Source: Cyanobacteria bacterium M_surface_7_m2_040 (GTDB taxonomy: Bacteria; Cyanobacteriota; Cyanobacteriia; PCC-6307; Cyanobiaceae). Taken from it: DNA of 5,738 nucleotides. The stretch is taken from contig VGPQ01000102.1 in assembly GCA_016882555.1 (NCBI GenBank), positions 1 through 5,738 of the forward strand, given 5' to 3'. A model generated the notes under the pieces. The model was not told the DNA's origin. It saw nothing but the letters and a program-made list of their open reading frames with translations, and made no database searches. Within the stretch, counting starts at the first letter, position 1, and every line of letters begins with the position of its first letter. Positions 1 to 5,738 of the stretch are shown piece after piece. The position numbers and the translations under genes are program-made.

Positions 1-924
1 GCCCAGATTCTTGTTGTAGGCGATCGGAGCGCCGTTGAGGGTCAGCACATCGAGCACCGTGGCACTGGGGTAGACGCTGGGCCACAGGGCGAGCATGTCC
101 TCCTGCCCCACCCGGCCGCCCACGGTGGCGGTGAAGCCGGCTCCGATCGGCAGCTGGTAGTACAGCTTGTCGATGCCGACAACATTGGCGCCACTGTCTT
201 CCTGGAAGGCCACCTCCAGCTGGCTCAGGGTGGTGGGTCCGCCGCCACCGAAGCTGTTGCTGGTGCCGTCAAAGTTGCCACTGCGCAGCACCGTGCGCAG
301 CAGGTCGTTGCCGTTGAAGCTGGTGTCAAAGTTGAGCTGCACGTCGTAGTTGAACGTGACGGCGTTGGTGAGCGGCAGGGCACCCTGACTCACGCTGTTG
401 ACCGTGTTGGCACTGCCGTTGATGGCACTGCCGCCAAAGGCGGTGCCCCCAAGCACCATGGTGGCCTGGCCGCTCAACTTGGTGGTTGTGGAGAACTGCT
501 GGGCCTCCAGCACGCCCACCTTGGCCTCCATCCCGTCGACGCGGCCCTTGAGGATGGCGCGTTCGTTGGCGAACTCGGTCATCAGCTTTTTGAGCTCGTC
601 GGTCACTTCCGACGCGCGATCGAGGCAGGCATTGAGCAGGGCCGCTGCCTCAAAACGGGTCATGGCCTTGCCGCCGCGGTAGGTGCCTCCCGGGTAGCCC
701 GCCACGCAGCCATAGCGCTCGATCAGATTGCTCAGGGCTTGGTAGGCCCAGTCGCTGGGTTTGATGTCGCCGAGCTGGGCGATGCCGCTCACCTGCTCAC
801 TGCTGGCATAGCGGGCGATGGCGCTCAGGTTGAGCTCGCCGGCTCGGGCGTCATCGACTGCGGCGACGGGGGTCAGCAGGGCCAGGGCCACGGGGTTGAG
901 CCAGGGGTGTGCGCCGGGTGCCAT
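1..924 (-). CDS. SLH-domain OprB-type outer-membrane porin (cyanobacterial 'iron uptake porin' class), 3' end missing
   Basis: This is a cyanobacterial outer-membrane porin that lets small solutes or ions cross the outer membrane. The reading frame is open for 308 codons and runs off the left edge. From the N-terminus there is a hydrophobic signal segment (about residues 8-23, possible cleavage after ARA at 26-28) and one SLH domain (about 47-105, with LGDIKPSDWAYQAL, GCVAGYPGGTYRGG and MTRFEAAALLNACL) that anchors to peptidoglycan-linked polymer. A charged coiled coil follows (about 104-145), and from about 147 come the Gly/Asn/Ser-rich amphipathic strands of the barrel. ATG at 924 is the only plausible in-frame start before the stop at 988-990. 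Its signal peptide is odd because it has no Lys/Arg in the n-region (see the 924-959 entry). A Zur/Fur-type box lies 55 bp upstream, so zinc-controlled expression is likely. Database names say iron uptake; the promoter suggests zinc. The family call is firm; the substrate is inferred. Confidence 0.93.
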   Translation of the reverse strand, partial: MAPGAHPWLNPVALALLTPVAAVDDARAGELNLSAIARYASSEQVSGIAQLGDIKPSDWAYQALSNLIERYGCVAGYPGGTYRGGKAMTRFEAAALLNACLDRASEVTDELKKLMTEFANERAILKGRVDGMEAKVGVLEAQQFSTTTKLSGQATMVLGGTAFGGSAINGSANTVNSVSQGALPLTNAVTFNYDVQLNFDTSFNGNDLLRTVLRSGNFDGTSNSFGGGGPTTLSQLEVAFQEDSGANVVGIDKLYYQLPIGAGFTATVGGRVGQEDMLALWPSVYPSATVLDVLTLNGAPIAYNKNLG

Positions 925-978: not shown

Positions 979-993
979 TGATAACGATTATCA
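979..993. promoter_or_regulatory. Zur/Fur-type operator upstream of the porin
   Basis: TGATAACGATTATCA is a 7-1-7 inverted repeat with six of seven pairs complementary. It matches the cyanobacterial Zur consensus as I recall it (TGATAATNATTATCA) at every defined position but one, and is also close to the general Fur box. It is an AT-rich island in GC-rich DNA, 55 bp upstream of the porin ATG. On the minus strand it contains GATAAT and TATCAT, either of which could serve as a -10 element, so bound repressor would block the promoter. The zur gene ends less than 200 bp away. Zur rather than Fur is inferred from this context. Confidence 0.82.
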
Positions 994-1101: not shown

Positions 1102-1189
1102 ATGCTGCGTCGTTTGGTCAGCGATGGCGCTGGTCAGATCTGGTCGCAGCATCCAGGCTTGATCCAGCTTCTCGATTCAAGATGCTGCG
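1102..1189. repeat. Three-arm inverted repeat at the 3' end of zur (alternative hairpins)
   Basis: ATGCTGCG occurs at 1102-1109 and again at 1182-1189, and its reverse complement CGCAGCAT lies between them at 1145-1152. The middle arm can pair with either outer arm; with the right-hand one the stem grows to 9 bp (1145-1153 with 1181-1189). That right-hand arm lies inside the last codons of zur. No T-run follows on either strand, so this is not a classical intrinsic terminator. The rest of the zur-porin spacer (994-1176) holds no gene or RNA that I can recognise. Confidence 0.4.
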
Positions 1190-1686
1190 TCTGCGTGGTC
1201 ATCGCAACAGCCTGCTGGCAGCCCTGCTGCTGCACTGGAGTGAGCAACAGCTTCAGTTGCCCCGTGTTGACGCTGCTGGCAGGCGTCGCACAGTCCAAAG
1301 AATTCCAGGGTGTGGAACAGGGGCCTGAAACCCCGCAGGCTCTGCGCGCTCAGCTGCACGTCGTGCACCGGGCAGATCTCCAGGGTTTCGGTGCTGCCGC
1401 AATCCACGCAGGTGAGGTGATGCTCGTCGCGTTCGGCCGGGGCATAGAGCGCCTCGCCGCTGGGCAGGTGGCGGCAACGCACCAGCCCCTGTTGCTGCAG
1501 TTGGCGCAGGTGCCGGTACACCGTGGCCAGGCCCATCGGGCTGTTGCCGCGGCGCAGCCGGGCGTGCAGGTCCTGGCCGCTGAGTTCCCCCTTGCAGCGC
1601 CGCAGCTCCTTGAGCAGCTGCTCCTGTTTGGCAGAGAGGGCCACAGCCACCTGGGTCAATGCTGCGCGAGCAGGCAAGGGAACCAA
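1177..1686 (-). CDS. zur: Fur-family metalloregulator, probably the zinc repressor Zur
   Basis: This is a DNA-binding repressor that uses Zn(II) as co-repressor. The N-terminal half holds a winged helix, with the recognition region at about residues 49-69 (SPMGLATVYRHLRQL). The C-terminal half has the Fur dimerisation core. Two CxxC pairs, C93/C96 (LTCVDCG) and C133/C136 (LCDACQQ), would form the structural zinc site. C71, H73, E79 and H89/H90 are candidates for the sensing site. The FHTLEFFGLC segment resembles picocyanobacterial Zur proteins as I remember them, and the neighbours fit zinc better than iron or peroxide. The C-terminal tail ends in a small metal-ligand cluster (CCDDH). No ATG is available: a stop lies at 1695-1693, so the start is TTG 1686, TTG 1677, TTG 1659 or GTG 1650. 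It follows the exported-protein gene by 37 bp and is probably co-transcribed with it. Fur or PerR are less likely alternatives. Confidence 0.8.
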   Translation of the reverse strand: MVPLPARAALTQVAVALSAKQEQLLKELRRCKGELSGQDLHARLRRGNSPMGLATVYRHLRQLQQQGLVRCRHLPSGEALYAPAERDEHHLTCVDCGSTETLEICPVHDVQLSAQSLRGFRPLFHTLEFFGLCDACQQRQHGATEAVAHSSAAAGLPAGCCDDHADAAS

Positions 1687-1723: not shown

Positions 1724-3046
1724 TCAGGGCGGCAGCCAGAGGGCCAGGCGGCCCCGCTGGCCCACGGGCGTCAGTGCCAGATCAGGGCCGGCCATCAGCA
1801 TCAGCTCGGGCGATGGCGGTCTGGAGCCGGGGCGGCCCAGCGGCCGCAGCACCAGCAGCAGCTGGTAGCGGCTGGGGTCAAGGCTGATCGGCGTGCCTGG
1901 CTCCAGTTCCCAGGTGCTGAGGCTGCGGCGTGCCTGGGTGCGGCCCTGGCGATCGAGTTCCAGCACGGTGAGCTCAGGACGCGCAATGCCCTCGATCTGG
2001 GCCAGCCACAGCCGCTCGCCGCCCCCCAGGCAGCTGCTGGCCACCAGCGCCTGGCTGCCCAGCCACAGCTGCCGCGGGGCCTGACCCGGTTCGACCAGTT
2101 CGAGCGAACGGCGAAAGGCGGGCCAGTGGCGCACCAGCAGGGCGCGTCCGGCCCGCGGGCAGAAGCTGCTCAGATCGCGGCTGCCCGGCAGGGTCTGCAA
2201 CCGCGGCGGCCGTGGTGGCAGGTCGTGCAGGGTCAGGCCCTCGCTGGCGGGTACCACCACGGCGCCCCCCTGGGGCAGCAGTCGCATCGGTCCGCTGGCC
2301 TCGATCGCCAGCGGGCGTGGCCGTTGTCCCTTGGGCCACAGCAGCGTCTGCGCGCTCATCGGCTCGGGGCCGCCGCTCTGGATCAGCAGATCGCCGCGGC
2401 GGTTGCTGCTCAGATGGGCAAACAGGGCGCGCCCATCCCCCAGCGCGATGGGCGCCTGGGCCCGCACCGGCGCCAACCCCTGGCTGGCCGGGGCCAGGTT
2501 GCGCTGCTGCAGGGGGATGGTCCAGATCTGTTGGCCAGCCGCTGAGCGACTCACCAGGGCCACGCCCGAGCCATCGCCGATGGGCTCAACGGCCAGGATC
2601 TGGCTCCACACCGGCGAGATCGCCTGCCAACGCCCATCGGCCTGCTGCAGCTGCAGCTGCTCGCCGCCGCGCACCGGCACCACCGCGAGGATGCGGGGCC
2701 TGGGATCCCACAGCCAGCGGCTGGGCGGCAGGGCTGCGCCGCGGCGGTCGCGGCCGGCCAGGGTGAGCCTGATCGGGCCGGTGATGCGGCTGCCCGGCGC
2801 CAGGCTCAGCTTCAGCCGGTTGCCGTTGCCCAGCCAGCGCACGTTGAAGGGCGGCTGCAGCTGGCTGCTGGCGGCCACGCTGGCGCGATCCATCGGCCGG
2901 CTGAACCGCAGCTCCAGAGAGGCGGGACCGCTGCTGGCCTCGCTCTGCTGCAGCGCCACCAGCCGCGGCGGCAGACGCAGCAGCAGTTGCTGCTGACCCA
3001 CGGCCAGCGCCAGCGGCAGCGCCAGGGCCAGCGCCAGCCGGTTCAT
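1724..3046 (-). CDS. Exported protein of unknown function with N-terminal Ig-like domain, in the zur/permease operon
   Basis: I do not recognise a characterised family for this 440-residue protein. The first 16 residues (MNRLALALALPLALAV) form a short signal peptide or anchor, so most of the chain should lie outside the cytoplasmic membrane. Residues about 43-100 (LELRFSRPMD to IRLTLAGRDRRG) look like an SbsA-type Ig-like domain. From about 115 to the end there are repeated short beta-strand stretches with GDG, RGDL and RLWLAQ-type turns, suggestive of a beta-propeller or another repeat beta fold; this is by eye only. There are just two cysteines (C296, C339), which could form a disulfide. 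There is no obvious His-rich metal site. Its ATG overlaps the stop of the upstream membrane protein gene (ATGA), so its translation is coupled to the permease pair. It is probably an envelope accessory subunit of that system. Confidence 0.85.
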   Translation of the reverse strand: MNRLALALALPLALAVGQQQLLLRLPPRLVALQQSEASSGPASLELRFSRPMDRASVAASSQLQPPFNVRWLGNGNRLKLSLAPGSRITGPIRLTLAGRDRRGAALPPSRWLWDPRPRILAVVPVRGGEQLQLQQADGRWQAISPVWSQILAVEPIGDGSGVALVSRSAAGQQIWTIPLQQRNLAPASQGLAPVRAQAPIALGDGRALFAHLSSNRRGDLLIQSGGPEPMSAQTLLWPKGQRPRPLAIEASGPMRLLPQGGAVVVPASEGLTLHDLPPRPPRLQTLPGSRDLSSFCPRAGRALLVRHWPAFRRSLELVEPGQAPRQLWLGSQALVASSCLGGGERLWLAQIEGIARPELTVLELDRQGRTQARRSLSTWELEPGTPISLDPSRYQLLLVLRPLGRPGSRPPSPELMLMAGPDLALTPVGQRGRLALWLPP

Positions 3047-3750
3047 GGTTCCAGCGGCCGCGGCGGGCGCGGGATCGGCCTGATCCGCTGCGGAATCACC
3101 ACCAGCTCTTCGCCCTGGGGGCCCTGCTGCACGGCCATCTCACCGTTGATCTGCAGCCATTGATCAGCCTTGGGCAGGGGTTGATCGCCGGGCCAGCGCA
3201 CCGGCAGCCCAATCGGTGTGGCATCGGCCAGGCAGCAACGCACCAGCAGCCGCGCCAGCAGCGGTGGCCCATCGCTGCGCGGCAGCACGAAGCCGCTGAT
3301 GCGCACGGGATCGCCCACGTACAGGCGTGGATCGCTCTGGCTGCGCAGCAGCCGCACCCAGTCGGTGAGGCTGCGCTGGGCCGGCGGCAGCACGAAGGCC
3401 AGTTCGGCGTCGCTGCTGTCGTCGCCGGGGCGTCGCTGCGCCAGATCGGCAAACGAGGGGTTCGGCGGCAGGGCGATCAGCAGCAGGGCGATCAGCGCCG
3501 TGGCCGCCAGCGTTCGCCAGTGGCGGGGCGTCACGGTTTCGGCGACCGCCGCTGCAGCCCCTTGGCTCCAGCGGCCCCGCAACGGCAGCACCAGCACCAC
3601 CGCCCACACCAGCAGCAGCAATCCGGCGATGCTGACCAAGGGGTGAAACACCCCGCGCAGCAGCAGATCGAGCCGTCCATCAGCACTCGAGCGCAGCAGC
3701 ACCAGACCCCACAGGGCCAGCCCGGCGGCCTGCAGGTGGCGGGTCTTCAC
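3043..3750 (-). CDS. TIGR03943 / YcgQ-type (UPF0703, DUF1980) putative permease subunit
   Basis: This is the membrane partner of UPF0718 permeases; the transported substrate is not established. With a GTG start at 3750 the protein has 235 residues. Hydrophobic segments lie at about 6-20, 36-57 and 80-97, followed by a largely soluble domain. The family signature is visible in that domain: YVGDPVRISGFVLPR (about 144-158), LLVRCCLADATPIGLPV (about 168-184, with C172/C173 and D176) and WLQINGEM (about 198-205). The GTG overlaps the permease stop as GTGA, the usual coupled arrangement. An ATG seven codons upstream (3771) is possible, but MKTRHLQ is the more natural beginning. The stop overlaps the next gene's ATG. 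In other bacteria these pairs often sit near zinc-related genes, including CobW GTPases, which matches this neighbourhood. Confidence 0.88.
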   Translation of the reverse strand: MKTRHLQAAGLALWGLVLLRSSADGRLDLLLRGVFHPLVSIAGLLLLVWAVVLVLPLRGRWSQGAAAAVAETVTPRHWRTLAATALIALLLIALPPNPSFADLAQRRPGDDSSDAELAFVLPPAQRSLTDWVRLLRSQSDPRLYVGDPVRISGFVLPRSDGPPLLARLLVRCCLADATPIGLPVRWPGDQPLPKADQWLQINGEMAVQQGPQGEELVVIPQRIRPIPRPPRPLEP

Positions 3751-4721
3751 AGCAACCACAGGTTGATCCATTGACTGATCAACAGCACGCTCAGGCCGGC
3801 CCCCGCCGAGGCCAGCAGTAGGCCCTGGGGCCGCAGCAGCAGGCCCAGCAGGCCTGCCAGCTTCAGGTCGATCACCGGGCCCAGCAGCAGAAAGGCCAGA
3901 AGGGCGCCAGGGGTGACCTGGGCCGCAAAGCTGAGGGCCAGAAAGGCATCCACGCTCGAGCACACCGAGATCACCAGGCTCAGGGCCATCAGCGCCAGGA
4001 TCGAGCCGGTGGGGCTGCCCCCCAGGTTGAGCAGCCACTGGCGCGGCAGCAGCGTCTGCACCAGGGCCGCCAGCACGCAGCCGGCCACCAGCAGCAGTGC
4101 CAGCTGCACAAACTCGCGGCCGCCATGGCTAAGCACCTCCTGCAAGGGAGGCCGAGGCGTGGGCTGCGGCGATGGCTCCTGAGCAGTCGACGTGGCTGTT
4201 GACACGCCGACCAGGCCAGATCGCCGTTGCAGCAAGGTCACCGCGGCCAGGGGTTGGTTGAGCCGCCGCTCGGCCAGTACATCGGCCTGCAGCAGCTGTT
4301 GTTCCGGAATCAGGCGCAGCAGCAGGCACAGTGCCAGCGACACCAGCACAGCCCCGATGGGCCTGGCCAGCAGCAGCCAGGGCTGATCCGGAAAGGCGGC
4401 CCAGGTGCTGGCGATCACGATCGGGTTGAGCACCGGCGCGGCAAACAGAAATCCCAGGGCCGAACCCAGGGGTGCCCCGCCCACCAGCATGCGCCGCGCC
4501 ACCGGCACGTTGCCGCACTCGCAGGCCGGCAGGGCAAAGCCCAGGGCGGCGCCGCTCAGCGGCCCCAACAAAGGATGGGCCGGCAGCCTTCTGAGCCAGC
4601 GCCCCCCGGGGGCGAGCCAGCGGGCCAGGGCCGAGATCAACACGCCGATCAGCAGAAACGGCAACGCCTCGATCAACAGTCCCTGAAACAGTGCCCAGGC
4701 GGTGTTGAGCTTGATCAGCAT
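3747..4721 (-). CDS. UPF0718 / YraQ-YcgR-type integral membrane permease
   Basis: This 324-residue polytopic inner-membrane protein is the presumed transport channel of the two-gene permease system. It has two hydrophobic halves joined by a polar Pro/Gln-rich linker (about 140-200). The first half carries PACECGNVPVARRM (65-78, with C67 and C69) and APVLNPIVIA (95-104). The second carries the matching VCSSVDAFLALSF (253-265, with C254) and LLLGPVIDLKLAGLL (278-292). These repeated Cys- and Asp-containing helices are the hallmark of the family; members include putative arsenic (ArsP-like) and other metal or metalloid permeases, so the substrate is not fixed by homology. The ATG at 4721 lacks a strong Shine-Dalgarno sequence. 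It begins 50 bp after the vapC stop with no recognisable promoter or Zur box in between, so its transcript may start upstream of the toxin-antitoxin genes. Zinc or another divalent metal is inferred from context. Confidence 0.87.
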   Translation of the reverse strand: MLIKLNTAWALFQGLLIEALPFLLIGVLISALARWLAPGGRWLRRLPAHPLLGPLSGAALGFALPACECGNVPVARRMLVGGAPLGSALGFLFAAPVLNPIVIASTWAAFPDQPWLLLARPIGAVLVSLALCLLLRLIPEQQLLQADVLAERRLNQPLAAVTLLQRRSGLVGVSTATSTAQEPSPQPTPRPPLQEVLSHGGREFVQLALLLVAGCVLAALVQTLLPRQWLLNLGGSPTGSILALMALSLVISVCSSVDAFLALSFAAQVTPGALLAFLLLGPVIDLKLAGLLGLLLRPQGLLLASAGAGLSVLLISQWINLWLL

Positions 4722-4771: not shown

Positions 4772-5194
4772 TCAGGAACCCGAAAAGGGGTTCAGCAACG
4801 GCACGCCGGTGCCGGCAAAGTCAGCCGTGTTGAGCGTCACCAGCGTGAGGCCATGCAAGAGAGCCGTGGCGGCAATCTGCTTGTCGATGGCGTTGTGCCC
4901 CTGGGGCACCCGCAGGCGTCCCCATAGCTGAGCGCCATCGGCATCCAAAGGCAGCACCCGGTCGCTGAAATCGCTGATCACCTGGGCAAGCCAAGACTCG
5001 AGAACCCCGGCCTGCTGCTGATCACCGCGATGGCGGATCAGTGCGATGCCGCGTCGCAATTCGCCGATCGTGATCGCCGACACGAACAGCGGCGTTTGCG
5101 CTCGAGCAACATCGCCCCAGAACGCCATGACGCCTGCATCAGCCCGGCGCCCCTTGCGCCCCTCGCTGATCACGTTGGTGTCAATCAACAACAT
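4772..5194 (-). CDS. vapC: VapC/FitB-type PIN-domain toxin (endoribonuclease)
   Basis: This is a type II toxin expected to cleave RNA through a Mg2+-dependent PIN active site. The 140-residue length is normal. All four acidic residues can be placed: D5 in LLIDTNVISE, E45 in TIGELRRGI, D104 in NAIDKQIAATAL and D125 in LVTLNTADF. The ending GVPLLNPF is typical of the FitB branch. The common VTRN before the last Asp is VTLN here, a mild change. Nothing suggests inactivation: there is no frameshift and the length is full. It begins 11 bp after the antitoxin stop with a weak ribosome site, which would keep its output below that of the antitoxin. The target RNA cannot be told from sequence; initiator tRNA and other tRNAs are known targets of some family members. 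Confidence 0.93.
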   Translation of the reverse strand: MLLIDTNVISEGRKGRRADAGVMAFWGDVARAQTPLFVSAITIGELRRGIALIRHRGDQQQAGVLESWLAQVISDFSDRVLPLDADGAQLWGRLRVPQGHNAIDKQIAATALLHGLTLVTLNTADFAGTGVPLLNPFSGS

Positions 5195-5205
5195 GGCCAG
5201 ACGCG

Positions 5206-5442
5206 TCAGCTGAACACATCGACTGGCTCTGGTCCATCCCCAGCGCGTTCAAAGTCAGCATCAAGGCCCACATTCGGCATGGCTGCAAGCAGCTCAGCCA
5301 GGTTTCGCCGCGGGGGCTCCAACAAGGCTGCCGCCAGGATGGCGCGGTGCTCTGCTTCTGCGCTGCGGCCATGGGCCCCGGCGCGCTTCTTGAGAGCTTG
5401 CACCAGGGTGTCATCCACACCGCGGACCAGCAGATCAGCCAT
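5206..5442 (-). CDS. FitA/VapB-type ribbon-helix-helix antitoxin
   Basis: This 78-residue antitoxin is the partner of the PIN toxin that follows it. The N-terminal 40 residues form a FitA-like ribbon-helix-helix: LLVRGVDDTLVQALKKRA gives the beta strand and first helix, and HGRSAEAEHRAILAAAL the second helix, with the GRSAEAE turn characteristic of the FitA group. The C-terminal part (from about 45, with VGLDADFERAG) would wrap around the toxin and block its active site. ATG at 5442 is chosen because family members start MA-x-L-x-V/I-R; a TTG at 5466 would add eight unneeded residues and would lie inside the candidate operator. Autoregulation by the toxin-antitoxin complex is expected. Confidence 0.9.
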   Translation of the reverse strand: MADLLVRGVDDTLVQALKKRAGAHGRSAEAEHRAILAAALLEPPRRNLAELLAAMPNVGLDADFERAGDGPEPVDVFS

Positions 5443-5457
5443 CCATTCTTGCCGCGT

Positions 5458-5474
5458 TGATAGCAATGCTAGCG
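5458..5474. promoter_or_regulatory. Candidate toxin-antitoxin operator upstream of vapB
   Basis: TGATAGCA-A-TGCTAGCG is an 8-1-8 inverted repeat with six of eight pairs complementary; its core TAGCAATGCTA (5461-5471) is perfect. It lies 15 bp upstream of the antitoxin ATG. As I recall, the gonococcal FitAB operator has half-sites TGCTATCA and TGATAGCA, and the left half here is identical to one of them, though the spacing differs. TAGCAT within it (minus strand) could be a weak -10 element. Confidence 0.5.
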
Positions 5475-5619: not shown

Positions 5620-5738
5620 ATGGCCTTCTCCAGCCCTGTTCCCGCCGCCGAGCGCCTGCCGGTGACCGTGCTCACCGGTTACCTCGGTGCCGGCAAGACC
5701 ACCTTGCTCAACCGGATCCTCACCCATGAGCACGGCCT
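5620..5738 (+). CDS. CobW/COG0523-family (G3E) GTPase, putative zinc metallochaperone, 5' part only
   Basis: Only the first 39 codons are present before the right edge. After a short variable leader comes [20 protein letters not shown]: a beta strand and the Walker A/P-loop G20-Y-L-G-A-G-K26-T27-T28, followed by the LLNRIL helix. This is the exact opening of G3E-family CobW proteins, which hydrolyse GTP to deliver or handle zinc or cobalt. The metal-binding CxCC motif expected shortly after would lie outside the window, so the zinc-linked and cobalamin-linked branches cannot be separated directly. ATG at 5620 is the only reasonable in-frame start; no clear Shine-Dalgarno is visible. It is transcribed divergently from the antitoxin-toxin genes, and its neighbours favour a zinc role. 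Confidence 0.92.

Follow-up and report, generated by a model that had tools for sequence, protein, structure and literature searches.

A permease of the UPF0718 family (COG0701) and a smaller protein of the TIGR03943 family (COG3689) are encoded as a gene pair in several bacteria, such as ycgR-ycgQ in Bacillus subtilis and scfA-scfB in Streptococcus pyogenes. According to PMC5584981, ycgRQ is under the control of extracytoplasmic function (ECF) sigma factors, scfAB is required for fitness in infection, and the function of both genes is unknown. The named relatives of this permease, ArsP and SO_0444, are described as efflux proteins in the available parts of PMC3219624 and PMC10092412. Two envelope proteins linked to zinc also have to be compared, namely AztD, a Zur-controlled beta-propeller that passes zinc to a binding protein and whose site 1 holds three His residues (PMC6689063, available in part), and ZepA of Anabaena, which contains an immunoglobulin (Ig)-like domain and is connected with zinc and Zur. 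Here, we describe a locus on contig VGPQ01000102.1 of a draft genome (80.85% complete) of Cyanobacteria bacterium M_surface_7_m2_040; the 5,738-nucleotide stretch analyzed is hereafter called the window. Relatives bearing the names Cyanobium and Synechococcus place this genome in the Synechococcus/Cyanobium group. In this window, the permease pair is followed by a third gene encoding a 440-residue protein, denoted P440. We propose, at a rough probability of 0.45, that P440 is a membrane-anchored periplasmic subunit of the neighboring permease, which would move zinc.

The first two genes of the locus correspond to ycgR-ycgQ and scfA-scfB. The permease (3747..4721, minus strand, 324 residues) scored 180 bits against PF03773 (cut-off 32.3) and covered positions 2-289 of the 294 in this model, which places it in the ArsP_1/UPF0718 family. 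The TIGR03943 protein (3043..3750, minus strand, 235 residues from the overlapping GTG) scored 152.9 bits against a cut-off of 88.8, and its start overlaps the stop of the partner permease in a GTGA at 3750-3747. The B. subtilis genes were recovered as a positive control in both the TIGR03943 and the permease searches. The sequence-only reading had regarded this pair as known but poorly characterized, which agrees with the available text of PMC5584981. The nearest named family to the permease was the SO_0444 Cu/Zn efflux family (NF033936), of which it is not a member, as its score of 80.3 bits (E 1.4e-22) lies far under the equivalog cut-off of 300. SO_0444 and ArsP share a Pfam family with the window permease, and their gene neighbors are different. 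The pair described in the available text of PMC5584981 likewise differs from the window, where the Ig-propeller gene comes after the pair and zinc genes lie around it. Residues C67-E68-C69, C254, and D258 are invariant in 45 aligned copies of the permease, as are C172-C173 and D176 (235-residue numbering) in 41 aligned copies of TIGR03943. The Cys-Glu-Cys and Cys/Asp residues of the former, together with the Cys-Cys...Asp of the latter, would suit a path for zinc or another soft metal. A single-chain structure model of TIGR03943 built from four sequences gave a predicted local distance difference test (pLDDT) value of 40.3 and was too poor for use.

The P440 gene (1724..3046, minus strand) overlaps the end of the TIGR03943 gene in an ATGA at 3046-3043. 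Both overlaps were found where the sequence-only reading had put them, as were the three minus-strand open reading frames (ORFs) and the Zur-type gene after them; the 37-bp gap that it gave before the latter holds if TTG at 1686 is the start, and a later start would widen it. The spacing between TIGR03943 and P440 is exactly −4 nucleotides (nt) in 32 of the 44 loci in which all three genes could be placed with automatic start choice, and the other 12 junctions include true gaps as well as wrong automatic starts. This recurrence indicates that the ATGA overlap did not arise by chance. The junction of the permease and TIGR03943 genes varies more, with the permease gene ending in GTGA in 10 of 63 loci and in ATGA in 3, each in frame for TIGR03943. 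Among 101 genomes of the family, P440 was found in 45, and the permease was found in the identical 45. TIGR03943 was detected in these 45 and in one more (G049), where a remnant with a weak match and an internal stop is left. The P440 and TIGR03943 genes are adjacent in 42 of these 45 genomes. Furthermore, one sampled genome in each of the genera g6, g10, and g46 (G005, G009, and G081; each 99% complete) is devoid of all three genes, which are present in its congeners. The third gene thus both co-occurs with the pair and is coupled to it, as was looked for in a three-part complex, so that the tie to the permease pair claimed from the window is borne out and a three-gene unit of permease, TIGR03943, and P440 is well supported. 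In genus g9 (L075, L077, and L079 versus L076, L078, and L080), P440 shows 35-38% identity, lies on a contig apart from the permease pair, and has no visible zinc gene around it; here, the third component stands detached.

P440 exhibited no match up to E = 1 against Pfam and NCBIfam, nor, by sequence, against solved chains. Its AlphaFold2 model was obtained with a pLDDT of 93.7 and a predicted template modeling score of 0.89, and consists of an N-terminal helix (residues 2-24; 2975..3043, minus strand), an Ig-like domain similar to Big_5 (residues 29-113; 2708..2962, minus strand), and a beta-propeller (residues 118-438; 1733..2695, minus strand). The Ig-like start and the possible beta-propeller that had been guessed from the letters are therefore both present in the model. 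The Kyte-Doolittle hydropathy peaks at residues 4-22 with a value of 1.64, and QQ[QYH] comes after the helix in 306 of the 340 distinct sequences. In most rows of the alignment, as read by eye, V, L, I, or M stands directly before QQ, the window P440 having G at this position. Since such residues make a poor signal-peptidase site, P440 is more likely a membrane-anchored protein facing the periplasm than an exported one, which corrects the term "exported" used earlier, as judged from the model, hydropathy, and alignment.

Three described proteins were considered as possible relatives of P440. The top Foldseek match was TolB (7mx5_B, E 2.6e-7), which is likewise a periplasmic propeller. Membership in the TolB family was rejected because TIGR02800 gave no match to P440 up to E = 1 and the N-terminal domain is Ig-like instead; this model matched 1 of 22 distant P440 relatives (E 0.0014). 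AztD (6n01_A) appeared at rank 37 with an E value of 6.7e-6 and template modeling scores of 0.45/0.52, and many unrelated propellers matched the P440 model equally well or better. AztD resembles P440 in its beta-propeller and its neighborhood of zinc genes, and P440 has two invariant Cys where AztD has a conserved disulfide (PMC6689063, available in part). A common fold is, however, no proof of function, and P440 differs from AztD in its Ig-like domain, its probable membrane anchor, and the lack of a set of three conserved His, only H211 and H307 being well conserved, whereas highly conserved His ligands at two zinc sites mark AztD. The AztD family was rejected on the last ground, and P440 is seen as a scaffold or cap rather than a zinc chaperone because an AztD-type site of conserved His is absent. 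ZepA is also a cyanobacterial envelope protein with an Ig-like domain; in the available text of PMC10957091, it is encoded by a 915-bp gene and has a PEP-CTERM tail, an H-X(2-9)-H-F/Y-H motif, and a second domain of new fold, none of which is found in P440. Neither the tail nor the motif was seen on reading the P440 sequence, which led us to reject this family as well. The word "permease" is not used in the main text of the ZepA paper.

The neighbors of the trio within the family were identified by an all-against-all comparison of the loci, and zinc profiles were then built from the recurring ones. By Pfam, these neighbors are ZnuA (PF01297, E 4.5e-70), an ATP-binding cassette (ABC) ATPase, an ABC-3 permease, CobW, an outer-membrane barrel, and PTPS. 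Within the stretch fetched around P440, ZnuA was found in 33, ZnuB in 28, ZnuC in 28, and Zur in 31 of 46 loci (45 genomes, one of them split over two contigs), and 39 loci contained at least one of the four. The zinc genes stand beside the trio in at least six gene orders. P440 is followed by zur and then the porin, or a znuBCA block lies between P440 and zur; znuA or zur is divergent from the permease; P440 is convergent with a pair of outer-membrane protein (OMP) gene and znuA that is itself divergent from znuCB; or znuABC, the trio, znuCB, znuA, and the OMP gene run on a single strand throughout. In genus g35, all 5 loci have znuC as the next profiled gene, on the strand of P440, with its open frame starting no more than 6 nt past the P440 stop. 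The chance that 14 kb of a 2.7-Mb genome carrying a few zinc loci would include one was roughly estimated at a few per cent, the loci being mutually related; the persistence of the zinc genes through rearrangement is a stronger argument than this estimate. The link of the trio to zinc is strong inside the family. ZnuA (PF01297) gave no match in the genome of the window itself, whereas the other six genomes in that search matched; at 80.85% completeness, the gene may simply be missing from the draft. A beta-barrel protein containing a stretch rich in His and Glu, for example L070:1603-2655, accompanies ZnuA in most of the marine loci (L061-L070 and L146-L163); by synteny, it may be SYNW0972 and a possible outer-membrane zinc channel.

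The gene after P440 in the window (1177..1686, minus strand, 169 residues if TTG is the start) scored 61.7 bits against PF01475 and carries two CxxC pairs (CVDC and CDAC). Its closest solved chain was 7ne9_AAA (E 1.1e-48), followed by 2o03 (FurB/zinc; E 3.7e-18). Judging from its Fur fold, its structural CxxC pairs, and its proximity to zinc-sensing members, it is probably a Zur-type regulator, and it scored 24.6 bits against the E. coli-type Zur model PRK11639, below the cut-off of 167. A palindrome TGATAACGATTATCA at 979..993 lies upstream of a SomB-type porin gene (1..924, minus strand, cut by the window edge; NF033921 205.6 bits, cut-off 100) and has one mismatch to the box TGATAATNATTATCA; in the 12-position palindrome score, it reaches 11. 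Fur and Zur boxes resemble each other, so this element could serve either regulator. When 10 or more of the 12 positions were counted as a box (2.0% of random 270-nt stretches from the same loci, znu promoters included), boxes were found upstream of ZnuA in 45 of 57 regions, ZnuC in 24 of 54, the porin in 8 of 18, and zur in 5 of 32. The porin figure suggests that the SomB-type porin may serve zinc under Zur control. No box was found upstream of P440 (0/63) or TIGR03943 (0/51), and 5 of 64 permease regions had one, at least two of these overlapping the start codon. Direct control of the trio by Zur is thus unsupported as a rule, and the sequence-only proposal that the system is regulated with its own sensor is weakened, as the window box precedes the porin.

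A possible zinc response is suggested from another direction. In genus g5, which we take to be the genus of strain WH8102, P440 is the next profiled gene past the OMP gene following znuA in 17 of 18 loci; one of the 17 has a gap of about 0.8 kb with room for another gene, and the eighteenth has no OMP match. This position next to the OMP-znuA pair suggests that SYNW0973 is probably P440. In the available text of PMC9337993, synw0968-0973 were raised in a zur mutant of WH8102, synw0970-0973 were raised also at low zinc, and synw0972 and synw0973 were given as genes of unknown function. Antisense read-through was considered as a source of the SYNW0973 signal, P440 and the OMP-znuA pair being in convergent orientation; it is less likely given that the libraries were strand-specific (PMC9337993). 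SYNW097x terms were not found in PMC3865332.

Relatives of the trio were also surveyed in 291 genomes of the class (cyanobacterial genomes). The P440 profile detected ORFs of about 500 residues (P500) in 202 of them, mostly as weak matches. Profile alignment of 22 P500 ORFs with P440 covered 373 columns with a probability of 98.8 and an E value of 1.2e-16, and 14 of the 22 matched Pfam Big_5 at E ≤ 0.01. The profile of these 22 ORFs found matches in 237 genomes, and TIGR03943 was present in 253. By genome handle, TIGR03943 and P440/P500 occurred together in 246 genomes, TIGR03943 only in 7, P440/P500 only in 3, and neither in 35. Outside the family, the two lie within 4.5 kb in 26 of 112 genomes across 8 families, the 112 being those with both coordinates among the matches listed, of which some drafts may be split by contig breaks. 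TIGR03943 is directly before P500 in 5 of 19 stretches around P500, and P500 is directly after TIGR03943, in the gene order of the window, in 6 of 20 stretches around TIGR03943, with 4 of these 20 ending too soon to tell. Some cyanobacteria (G161, G274, G306, G322, G348, and others) have two or three matches to the P500 profile, which may be paralogues or genes split in drafts.

Because the P440 gene is kept beside the transporter pair and usually near zinc-uptake genes, the three proteins are likely to form one transport complex, which would handle zinc. In such a complex, the permease would carry the metal through a membrane path holding its invariant Cys-Glu-Cys and Cys/Asp residues, and TIGR03943 would expose its Cys-Cys...Asp site to the periplasm. 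P440 would be held beside both by its N-terminal helix, and its propeller may form a lid and docking site linking the permease of the inner membrane to partners in the periplasm or outer membrane. As for direction, we lean slightly to the supply side, that is, uptake or delivery beside ZnuABC, at somewhat less than even odds; export is less probable, and the rest falls to another substrate. Supply is suggested by the neighbors and by SYNW0973, and export by the named relatives of the permease. The earlier proposal of a three-component system for export or uptake of zinc or another metal therefore stands as regards the three-gene unit and its surroundings of ZnuABC, Zur, COG0523, and outer-membrane genes, and gives way on regulation by its own sensor.

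A number of observations weigh against this proposal, and they lend themselves to other explanations to different degrees. The same three-part complex may be an outlet that releases zinc (or Cu or Cd) from the cytoplasm to balance the neighboring ZnuABC, P440 receiving or capping the metal in the periplasm. The efflux function of ArsP and SO_0444 points this way, as do membership in the Pfam family ArsP_1, the nearest named family being that of SO_0444, albeit under its cut-off, and the Zn and Cu sensitivity of the SO_0444 mutant (PMC3219624, available in part). Likewise, 59 of 64 permease upstream regions have no Zur-like box, which fits a gene that is not induced by starvation. In WH8102, the main text of PMC9337993 leaves synw0974-0976 unmentioned, which argues against the genes responding simply as one operon. 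A Zur-type gene and ZnuA are retained in six sampled genomes that lack the trio; the trio would accordingly be accessory there and not the main importer, and the retention of importers where the trio is lost also fits an outlet. However, the neighbors are acquisition genes and Zur, and SYNW0973, if it is P440, rises at low zinc; we regard export by this complex as less probable.

Less probable still is that the three proteins handle another substrate in a general role in the envelope or in thiol/redox chemistry, in which case the proximity to zinc genes would reflect family gene order only. The pair and a P440-type protein occur together far beyond the family (246 of 291 class genomes), acid stress is affected by the mutans homologues in the available text of PMC5584981, and the family-built profiles, which may not reach that far, gave no ZnuA, ZnuB, or Zur match near 25 TIGR03943 loci of other cyanobacteria. 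This silence is weak evidence since the profiles were built on family sequences; ZnuC matches outside the family (L109, L171, and L172) had low scores, may be other ABC ATPases, and were set aside. Even inside the family, 7 of 46 P440 loci show none of the zinc genes, and it is the recurrence in the other 39 across rearranged orders that speaks against gene order as the sole cause. The unity of the trio is also imperfect. In the three g9 genomes, P440 and TIGR03943 occupy separate contigs, with 2 kb or more between them and the contig ends. TIGR03943 looks damaged beside intact P440 and permease genes in G071 (L063; two partial frames) and G024 (L067; 62 residues matched), which may be real decay or sequencing error. 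Outside the family, TIGR03943 and P440/P500 are apart in 86 of the 112 genomes. The sequence-only reading had named homologues lying mostly away from the pair as its refutation; this applies by position outside the family, where co-occurrence is nearly complete, and not inside it. Lastly, H211 (94%) and H307 (95%) are the only well-conserved His residues in the 340 P440 sequences, H274 being kept in 13%. This scarcity also speaks against the idea that P440 acts without the permease and, like AztD, serves ZnuA as a zinc chaperone in the periplasm. The presence of AztD among the Foldseek matches and of ZnuA near 33 of 46 P440 loci speaks for such a chaperone, whereas AztD has three His in site 1, many unrelated propellers match no worse, and no ZnuA was detected close to the distant relatives that follow TIGR03943. 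This is the least probable of the explanations considered.

At the far end of the window, a CobW/COG0523 GTPase gene begins at 5620..5738 on the plus strand and is cut by the edge (PF02492, 32 bits, cut-off 20.7). The minus strand at 4772-5466, between the CobW gene and the permease, encodes a FitA-like ribbon-helix-helix antitoxin (PF22513, E 1.7e-15) and a PIN toxin (PF01850, E 1.3e-11). VapB/VapC queries matched the window alone among the 53 loci listed, so this pair is an apparent local insertion, which may separate the trio from its promoter.

No paper on a third component or a zinc link of the pair was found in an incomplete literature search, nor any using TIGR03943 as a name; Barnett 2012, on marine cyanobacterial zinc genes, may comment on it. 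The UPF0718/TIGR03943 pair occurs in most cyanobacteria sampled, in Bacillus, and in streptococci, with no function assigned in the literature found. A constant third component and a zinc neighborhood hence give a concrete handle on its substrate and partner. Tentatively, and with some doubt, the trio could be a three-subunit non-ABC zinc transporter in which the ArsP_1 permease and TIGR03943 are joined by a membrane-anchored Ig-propeller cap; it would operate alongside ZnuABC in Synechococcus and Cyanobium, and SYNW0973 would be the cap. SYNW0973, which responds to Zur in a model marine cyanobacterium and had no assigned function, thereby gains a likely identity.

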